From: Natrinema versiforme JCM 10478
GTDB lineage: Archaea > Halobacteriota > Halobacteria > Halobacteriales > Natrialbaceae
NCBI RefSeq assembly: GCF_000337195.1
Contig: NZ_AOID01000009.1
Span: forward strand, 1-47,957
Direction of reading: 5' to 3'
Length of the DNA: 47,957 bases
Under the pieces are notes generated by a model that made no database searches, was not told the DNA's origin, and saw only the letters and a program-made list of their open reading frames with translations. The position numbers were made by a program, and so were the translations under genes. Below are positions 34,184 through 35,539 of the stretch, piece after piece. Within the stretch, counting starts at the first letter, position 1. Each line of letters starts with the position of its first letter.

Positions 34184-34342
34184 GATCGGCGATCCGTCCG
34201 CATCCCTCTTAACCTTTCAGAAACCGAGTCGGTCGCCGCGGCTCGGACTCGAGTCGCACACGCGGCAATGTCTACTGAGCAACGATCTGGCCCCGGCACG
34301 GCCTGCGATACGGCTTTCCGACTGGGGTCCCCATCCCCCGCT

Positions 34343-35539
34343 ATGGAGTCCATCGGCGTCGTCGTCAACCCGATCGCGGGGATGGGCGGTCGGGTCGGAC
34401 TGAAGGGAACCGACGGAAACGTTGCGGAGGCGCGCCGCCGCGGTGCGGAGCCGCGAGCCCCCGACCGAGCGCGGGAGGCGCTGCGATCGCTGCACCGTCG
34501 CGCGCCCGACCTCACCGTCTACACGGCCGCCGGCGCGATGGGCGAACGCGCGGTGCGAGACGCGGGCTACGAGCCCGCCGTCGTCTACGAGCCGGCCGAC
34601 GCCGACGCCAGCGATACCGAACCCGTTTCGACGACCGCCGACGATACCCGGGCGGCCGTCCGCGCGCTGCTCGAGCGCGGTCATCAGACGGCGTCTGATG
34701 AGCCGTCAGAATGTACGCGTTCTGACGACGGCGTCGATCTCGTGTTCTTCGTCGGCGGCGACGGGACCGCCGTCGACGTGGCCGAGGTGCTCGAGGCGGC
34801 CGAGGGCGAGACGCCGATGCTCGGCGTGCCGGCCGGCGTGAAGATTTACTCGTCGGTGTTCGGCGTGACGCCGGCCGACGCCGGCCGGATCGCCGCCGAG
34901 TTCGACCGGACCGAGACTCGCGAGGTCAACGACATCGACGAGGACGCCTACCGCGAGGGCGAGGTGCGGACGGAACTCAAAGCCGTCGTCCCGGTCCCCG
35001 TCGCCCCGGCGGTCCAATCGAGCAAGCAGGTCTCGAGCGGCAGCGTCGAGTCGCTGGCCACGGGATTCGCCCGCGAGGTCGAACCGAGTCGGACCTACGT
35101 CTTCGGGCCCGGAGGCACCGTCGGTGCGATCGAGGAAGAGCTGGGCATCGATCCGTCGCCGCTCGGCGTCGATGTCTGGCGTGCGGCCGAACGCGATGAC
35201 TCGGCTGGAAACGCAGCGGGCGCGAACGCGGAGCACGGGGAACTGCTCGCCCACGACGCCGCCGAGTCGGACATCCTCGAGGTCCTCACGGATCCGGTCA
35301 CGATCGTCGTCTCGCCGATCGGCGGACAGGGGTTCGTTTTCGGCCGCGGGAACCACCAGATTTCGCCCGCAGTGATCCGGCGGGCCGACGAGATCGCGGT
35401 CGTCGCCGCCGCCGAGAAACTCGACGAGATCGACTCGCTGCGCGTCGATACCGACGACGAGGAGATCGACGAGGAGCTCCGTGGCTGGCTGCAGGTCCGC
35501 ACGGGACGGTTTACCACCCGCCTCGTAAACGTCGTCTGA
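34343..35539 (+). CDS. ATP-NAD kinase family protein with in-frame palindromic insert
   Basis: A 398-residue member of the archaeal ATP-NAD kinase-like group (COG3199). It begins MESIGVVVNPIAGMGGRVGL and has the nucleotide motif FFVGGDGTAVDV, GVPAGVKIYSSVFG, and a late GGQGFVFGRGNHQISP. Likely phosphorylates NAD or a related substrate, but members of this group differ from classical NadK and activity is unconfirmed. Just before VDLVFFVGGDGT a 17-residue polar stretch (HQTASDEPSECTRSDDG) is encoded by two tandem DNA palindromes and looks like an insertion in a surface loop. Confidence 0.8.
   Translation: MESIGVVVNPIAGMGGRVGLKGTDGNVAEARRRGAEPRAPDRAREALRSLHRRAPDLTVYTAAGAMGERAVRDAGYEPAVVYEPADADASDTEPVSTTADDTRAAVRALLERGHQTASDEPSECTRSDDGVDLVFFVGGDGTAVDVAEVLEAAEGETPMLGVPAGVKIYSSVFGVTPADAGRIAAEFDRTETREVNDIDEDAYREGEVRTELKAVVPVPVAPAVQSSKQVSSGSVESLATGFAREVEPSRTYVFGPGGTVGAIEEELGIDPSPLGVDVWRAAERDDSAGNAAGANAEHGELLAHDAAESDILEVLTDPVTIVVSPIGGQGFVFGRGNHQISPAVIRRADEIAVVAAAEKLDEIDSLRVDTDDEEIDEELRGWLQVRTGRFTTRLVNVV
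34681..34727 (+). repeat. two tandem palindromes inside the ATP-NAD kinase gene
   Basis: The first hairpin has a perfect 9-bp stem (34681-34689 with 34693-34701) and loop GGC. The second has a perfect 8-bp stem (CGTCAGAA 34704-34711 with TTCTGACG 34720-34727) and an 8-nt loop. The stretch keeps the reading frame open and encodes the polar loop HQTASDEPSECTRSDDG. Confidence 0.8.

Follow-up and report, generated by a model that had tools for sequence, protein, structure and literature searches.

Several families of short, hairpin-forming mobile DNA have been described. The RPEs of Rickettsia are short palindromic selfish sequences which lie in frame in unrelated protein-coding genes and are translated as an extra segment (PMC10969869; PMC3733652). 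The mobile GC clusters of yeast mitochondria (GC42) combine conserved stems with variable loops, and the dinucleotide AG is present once in empty sites and twice as a footprint of the cluster (PMC4478555). For haloarchaea, one paper describes SMR-A of Haloquadratum, which is transposase-free and has a strong preference for PATEs and IS605-type elements, the palindromes near their termini included, and also terminal-only PATEs of 52 bp, which consist of two palindromes from IS605 ends and show no target duplication (PMC3119063). GTAG/CGTC REPs are short hairpins of bacteria, for which dimers are common and intragenic copies are known (PMC3733652).

The window analysed here is the whole stretch of 47,957 nucleotides from Natrinema versiforme JCM 10478. 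An earlier note had pointed to a palindromic insert in its ATP-NAD kinase gene. The observation is confirmed and its interpretation in the note largely holds; residence in IS605-type transposons, a 2-bp flank duplication and a class-wide distribution go beyond it. With a probability of roughly 0.87, we interpret this insert as a member of a family of very short, non-autonomous mobile DNAs that is widespread in haloarchaea, its copies being mostly 49–50 bp in length and composed of two adjacent hairpins.

The insert in the NAD-kinase gene

The open reading frame of the host gene extends from an ATG at position 34268 and matches the Pfam families NAD_kinase (PF01513) and PF20143. Translation probably starts at the ATG at 34343 rather than at 34268, as supported by NAD-kinase orthologues, which begin at the M of MxSxGVVVNP. 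The element (Table 1) reads TCATCAGACGGCGTCTGATGAGCCGTCAGAATGTACGCGTTCTGACGAC. Both hairpins of the earlier note were recovered as perfect stems: hairpin 1 has the form TCATCAGAC-GGC-GTCTGATGA and hairpin 2, located 2 nt downstream, the form CGTCAGAA-TGTACGCG-TTCTGACG, for which the family consensus has 10 bp and a 4-nt loop. None of 200 shuffled sequences was as stable as the element (z = −4.3 for ssDNA, −3.8 for RNA), and a 19-mer across both hairpins occurred once in the window compared with 0.03 occurrences expected.

Table 1. Features of the NAD-kinase locus in the window and copies of the element in other host genes.
Feature	Position	Strand	Evidence or occurrence
Host gene, archaeal ATP-NAD kinase	34343..35539	+	Pfam PF01513 + PF20143
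Left target half CTCGAGCGCGG	34670..34680	+	Common to several other insertion sites
GG, left copy of putative 2-bp target duplication	34679..34680	+	Flank comparison, empty sites
Putative mobile element, 49 nt, coding for part of GHQTASDEPSECTRSDD	34681..34729	+	cmsearch 72.3 bits; clean empty sites in orthologues
Hairpin 1, 9-bp stem, GGC loop	34681..34701	+	Fold, covariation
GC spacer between hairpins	34702..34703	+	C at column 23 invariant in family alignment
Hairpin 2, perfect 8-bp stem with 8-nt loop	34704..34727	+	Fold, covariation
Conserved right end AC	34728..34729	+	Family alignment
GG, right copy of putative target duplication	34730..34731	+	Flank comparison, empty sites
Right target half CGTCGA	34732..34737	+	Flank comparison, empty sites
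Forward in-frame copy, NAD kinase			G000, G071
Forward in-frame copy, P-type ATPase			G067, G071; PF00122
Forward in-frame copy, zinc alcohol dehydrogenase			G312; PF00107; empty site shown
Forward in-frame copy, luciferase-like oxidoreductase			G072; PF00296
Forward in-frame copy, epimerase-like protein			G059
Forward in-frame copies of 46 nt that add 48 nt, further epimerase and SAM-hydrolase-like protein			
Stop-hairpin-ATG cassettes (trpB, DUF1028, HAD-like)			L121, L143, L127, L123, L124, L129, L131

The insert is open within the NAD-kinase reading frame, as had been noted before, and codes for GHQTASDEPSECTRSDD between LLER and GVDLVFFVGGDGT. A ColabFold model of the protein (mean pLDDT 79.8) placed it between a helix (residues 99–115) and a strand (residues 134–138), with pLDDT values below 50 at residues 121–127; in this model the insert is a predicted flexible loop between the helix and the strand leading into GGDGT. 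A PDB sequence search with the NAD kinase gave no match.

The earlier note had proposed looking for an exact absence of the stretch in orthologues of close relatives, and such an absence was found in all same-genus orthologues retrieved, each of which lacks exactly these 17 codons. The alignment with the gene of the sister genome G015 (90% identity) showed a single clean gap of 51 nt. The empty site reads GCGCGGAGTCGAC and the filled site GCGCGG-(49 nt)-GGCGTCGAT, so that the two differ by 49 nt and a second GG. The span of 34681–34731 proposed originally is two nucleotides longer than the element itself; the insertion relative to orthologues amounts to 51 nt because the GG in front of the element is repeated behind it. 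As 49 nt and two duplicated nucleotides add up to 51, the reading frame survives.

Among approximately 110 haloarchaeal NAD-kinase orthologues, nearly all are gap-free at this position, and additional sequence is present in a few scattered cases only. The earlier note had named as evidence against an insertion the occurrence of these residues, ungapped, in distant genera. This was not encountered in the set; the one distant genome with these residues, G071 from another genus, carries an insertion of the same element at the identical base within an otherwise gap-free clade. In the gene tree the window gene groups with the empty G015 gene with full support, and the gene of G071, the only other carrier of the same element in this gene, falls into a different clade of empty genes. 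Thus, two independent insertions at the same base are the simplest reading. Ancestral presence followed by loss in the relatives would demand many parallel precise losses on this tree. An assembly artefact might be suspected, since the draft assembly of the window genome has an adapter artefact elsewhere, in trpB; the element is not adapter-like, however, and other, independent assemblies contain it too, in one case at the very same NAD-kinase base. Artefact and ancestral loss together are hardly credible.

The insertion in trpB of the window genome, a candidate second case, was rejected. It consists of a Nextera mosaic-end sequence (CTGTCTCTTATACACATCT) with a duplicated flank (locus L315, contig C22, around position 142,330) and is an assembly artefact unrelated to the NAD-kinase insert.

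The same NAD-kinase loop contains inserts of 17, 17 and 12 residues in distant haloarchaea (loci L025, L100 and L112). The two 17-residue inserts, from G029 (L025) and Halospeciosus (L100), lie at the same place and gave no match to the covariance model described below; that of L025 folds significantly into two hairpins and that of L100 does not fold significantly. Such inserts of unrecognised sequence, together with recurrent insertion at one base in two genera, might indicate that the host has selected the insert as a functional module, either at the RNA level (such as an attenuator hairpin) or in the protein (such as a regulatory loop of NAD kinase). Against this stands the absence of the element from nearly all NAD-kinase orthologues, sisters included, its presence in unrelated enzymes and transposons, the disruption of genes by reverse copies and the lack of any match to it in Rfam. 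We consider a host-selected module very improbable.

A family of double hairpins and its insertion sites

A search of 125 genomes of the same taxonomic family with the core pattern of the element detected 13 places, distributed over 11 genomes, and the reversed control gave no match. A covariance model of the double hairpin, built from 12 copies, matched in 322 of the 391 haloarchaeal genomes sampled. Apart from the window copy, no sequence scored above 18.4 bits when 407 kb of further haloarchaeal DNA was scanned, so the matches of 45–80 bits are not background. The copies are mostly 49–50 nt long (range 44–56). Covariation was measured on 27 distinct 49-nt copies: 98.7% of the stem cells are paired, and 13 of the 17 pairs show two-sided compensatory changes. 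None of 500 shuffles reached the observed value, and slid partners were paired in only about 30% of cases. The loops vary freely, so that the hairpins, with their paired and covarying stems, are the conserved part; the layout of two adjacent hairpins with kept stems and free loops is present in the family alignment.

This distribution bears on the idea of a local accident, in which strand switching (a templated palindrome) or repeat expansion within the NAD-kinase gene produced the insert independently of other genes. Inverted repeats are plentiful in GC-rich haloarchaeal DNA, and the insert does contain a partial direct repeat of 20 nt (75%) at a distance of 40 nt. The idea is contradicted by the finding that unrelated genes in other genera contain this 49-nt sequence, its stems covarying, and appears extremely improbable.

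The earlier suggestion to search for the hairpin core in other genes led to many genes and genomes and, in diverged form, to folD of the window genome. Exact searches and searches with three mismatches of that genome returned the window copy alone; its diverged copies were recovered only by the covariance model, with scores of at most 31 bits. A single well-preserved copy in this genome counts against a mobile family. No copy was detected in a plasmid collection by BLAST or in viral contigs by a pattern scan.

Two variants were seen in addition. Genomes G149 and G363 contain a 44-nt version at approximately ten or more places (L163, L164, L168, L169 and others), and the copies examined lie towards the 3′ end of tnpB, at KAR^VVEAG. 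In G345, a 56-nt version occurs within a non-coding repeat.

Empty sites were shown for three host genes only, namely NAD kinase, zinc alcohol dehydrogenase and folD. The zinc alcohol dehydrogenase gene of G312 exhibits a 51-nt gap in comparison with the same-genus G266 gene (93% identity) and others. In a second copy of folD in the window genome, a diverged, in-frame 44-nt double hairpin corresponds to a clean 45-nt gap relative to G016 (91%) and others. For the ATPase, luciferase-like, epimerase and SAM-hydrolase genes, we infer insertion from the element alone. The forward in-frame host copies that were checked use one common reading frame, encoding HQTxSDGPSERxRSDD or an equivalent; the folD copy is too diverged for an exact comparison of the frame. 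The survival of forward copies in genes may be due to two properties of the element: of its three forward frames two are open, and the one in use codes for a loop whose polar, acidic character would be tolerated in a haloarchaeal protein. The element thus looks able to add short loops to proteins. This reading does not require an advantage for the host, and none is evident.

At 78 distinct sites, the dinucleotides flanking the element were GG/GG in 39 cases, CG/GC in 12 and GT/GT in nine. Left and right dinucleotides were identical at 49 of these sites compared with 27.4 after shuffling, a value reached in none of 20,000 permutations. The matched flanks are consistent with a 2-bp target duplication. 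The consensus of the site is (C/G)CG(G/T)^CG, and sites in host genes often read GAGCGCG(G/T)^CGTCGA. There are exceptions to the rule: copies in terminal palindromes of IS605 commonly have CG/GC flanks, and the folD insert comprises 45 nt.

Many copies reside inside IS605-type transposons, either in tnpB or within near-terminal palindromes. Insertion places in TnpB are located after the DRDxNA motif, before VVEAG near the end and at QSG^FELK. These copies, as well as the size and the two-palindrome layout, would also fit a core-deleted PATE, that is, two IS200/IS605 end palindromes joined by internal deletion and moved by TnpA, and terminal-only PATEs of 52 bp are indeed described in Haloquadratum (PMC3119063). 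In PATEs, however, the target is not duplicated and the right end is fixed, while the left and right dinucleotides of the element co-vary; its hairpin sequences differ, moreover, from the IS605 terminal palindromes they interrupt. A derivation from IS605 ends is therefore unlikely, and we prefer a mobile family in its own right.

The element carries no gene. For its movement we envisage a trans-acting enzyme that would recognise the hairpins, be it in ssDNA, in a cruciform or in RNA, and would join the element at (C/G)CG(G/T)^CG with a 2-nt stagger, a target of the proposed type being GAGCGCGGCGTCGA. Candidate movers are an IS607-type serine recombinase with a GG core or the machinery of the parasitised IS605 elements. 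The GG/GT core is similar to the dinucleotide at which serine recombinases, IS607 TnpA among them, cross over, and a role of the IS605 machinery may be suspected from the affinity of the element for these transposons. Our searches revealed no mobilising enzyme or autonomous partner for the element, which counts against its classification as mobile DNA.

In tnpB of five genomes (loci L146, L147, L149, L151 and L152), a double-hairpin insert of 52 nt causes a frameshift at QSG^FELK. Both halves are mostly long open frames, with a short downstream half in L152, and both appear to be under purifying selection (dN/dS of about 0.1–0.35). We do not claim translational bypass of this insert, as independent recent insertions explain the low dN/dS equally well. 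At L208 (positions 1777–1923), a match to Rfam sot0042, a sense overlapping transcript of IS605-type tnpB, was observed below the gathering cut-off about 190 nt from a copy of the element.

Reverse copies and split genes

Read in reverse orientation, the element provides an in-frame TGA followed eight codons later by an ATG, and insertion in this direction splits the gene. Reverse copies divide trpB in two families (G055 and G032), a HAD-like gene and, in four genomes from three different genera, a DUF1028 gene (Table 1); an aldo-keto-reductase-like and an amidase-like gene appear to be interrupted likewise. In the split DUF1028 gene, positions 1–69 and 65–193 of the Pfam DUF1028 profile fall on the two halves, which look partly eroded in G069 and G070. 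The split trpB of G032 has acquired an extra frameshift, and both G032 and G055 also possess a trpB paralogue (55–58% identity).

Inactivation is the default reading for these split genes, because some of them show further decay (G032 trpB, G069 DUF1028). A functional two-piece TrpB enzyme was considered and dropped, as the paralogues and the G032 frameshift make decay at least as likely. We mention a far-reaching scenario only as a tentative one which we judge rather unlikely as a whole. Here, class-wide archaeal transposable elements of about 49 bp with double hairpins would be moved by an unrecognised hairpin-reading enzyme leaving a 2-bp duplication, and would give rise, depending on orientation, either to a translated loop of 16–17 residues or to a stop-hairpin-start cassette with two translationally coupled halves (trpB, DUF1028, tnpB), some of them perhaps functional via termination-reinitiation or ribosome hopping.

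A second coding palindrome, CGATCCTCGTCAGAACNNNGTTCTGACGGYGGTGAGCC, was noticed in G018 (L116) and G013 (L117/L119). It lies close to the N-terminus of a P-II-like gene and also forms a 51-nt tandem array that encodes repeats of SSSELRSDGGEP, and is possibly a sister family of the element.

Comparison with known systems

In-frame palindromic selfish DNA has hitherto been regarded as special to Rickettsia, a related idea existing for fungal mitochondria. The archaeal case is resolved to the base and class-wide, and it combines a fixed target with a frame-preserving length (49 + 2 = 51). This makes it possible to test by which route enzymes acquire new loops, what mobilises hairpin elements that lack a transposase and why such elements prefer IS605/TnpB. 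Haloarchaea can be cultivated and some are genetically accessible, which renders the system tractable.

We found no published description of the family in the open-access literature; subscription journals were largely outside the scope of this search. A partial overlap with named haloarchaeal repeats is possible, the SMR sequences having been compared by description only. Like the element, SMR-A is short and haloarchaeal and prefers IS605-type elements, including near-terminal palindromes. SMR-A measures about 110 bp, has terminal inverted repeats and no target duplication, and is not reported in the text consulted to insert in frame into host genes, whereas the element is 44–56 nt long with matched flanks. 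Terminal-only PATEs share with the element a haloarchaeal host, a length of about 50 bp and two palindromes, and differ from it in the properties that argued against them above, the co-varying flanks and the unlike hairpins. REPs differ in that they are bacterial and carry a tag tetranucleotide at the foot of the hairpin; the text consulted mentions neither an archaeal case nor a 2-bp duplication (PMC3733652). CGTC is found in the stem of hairpin 2 in some copies of the element only.

The resemblance to the palindromic elements of Rickettsia put forward in the earlier note stands as a likeness of kind, since both lie in frame inside unrelated protein-coding genes; it does not extend to sequence or to shared descent. 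RPEs form rickettsial sequence families of about 150 bp (about 100–150 bp), and the element, at 49 bp, has about a third of this length, consists of two hairpins with a 2-bp flank duplication, is haloarchaeal and also resides inside IS605 elements. Double-hairpin elements with a layout like that of the element have reportedly been found in Allomyces by Paquin et al. in 2000. Closest in anatomy are the GC clusters, mobile hairpins of about 42–50 bp. They are mitochondrial and mostly intergenic, are unrelated in sequence and duplicate AG instead of GG or GT; a duplicated dinucleotide of their type was nevertheless found at the insertion sites of the element (GG/GG, GT/GT), with the exception of the CG/GC class.
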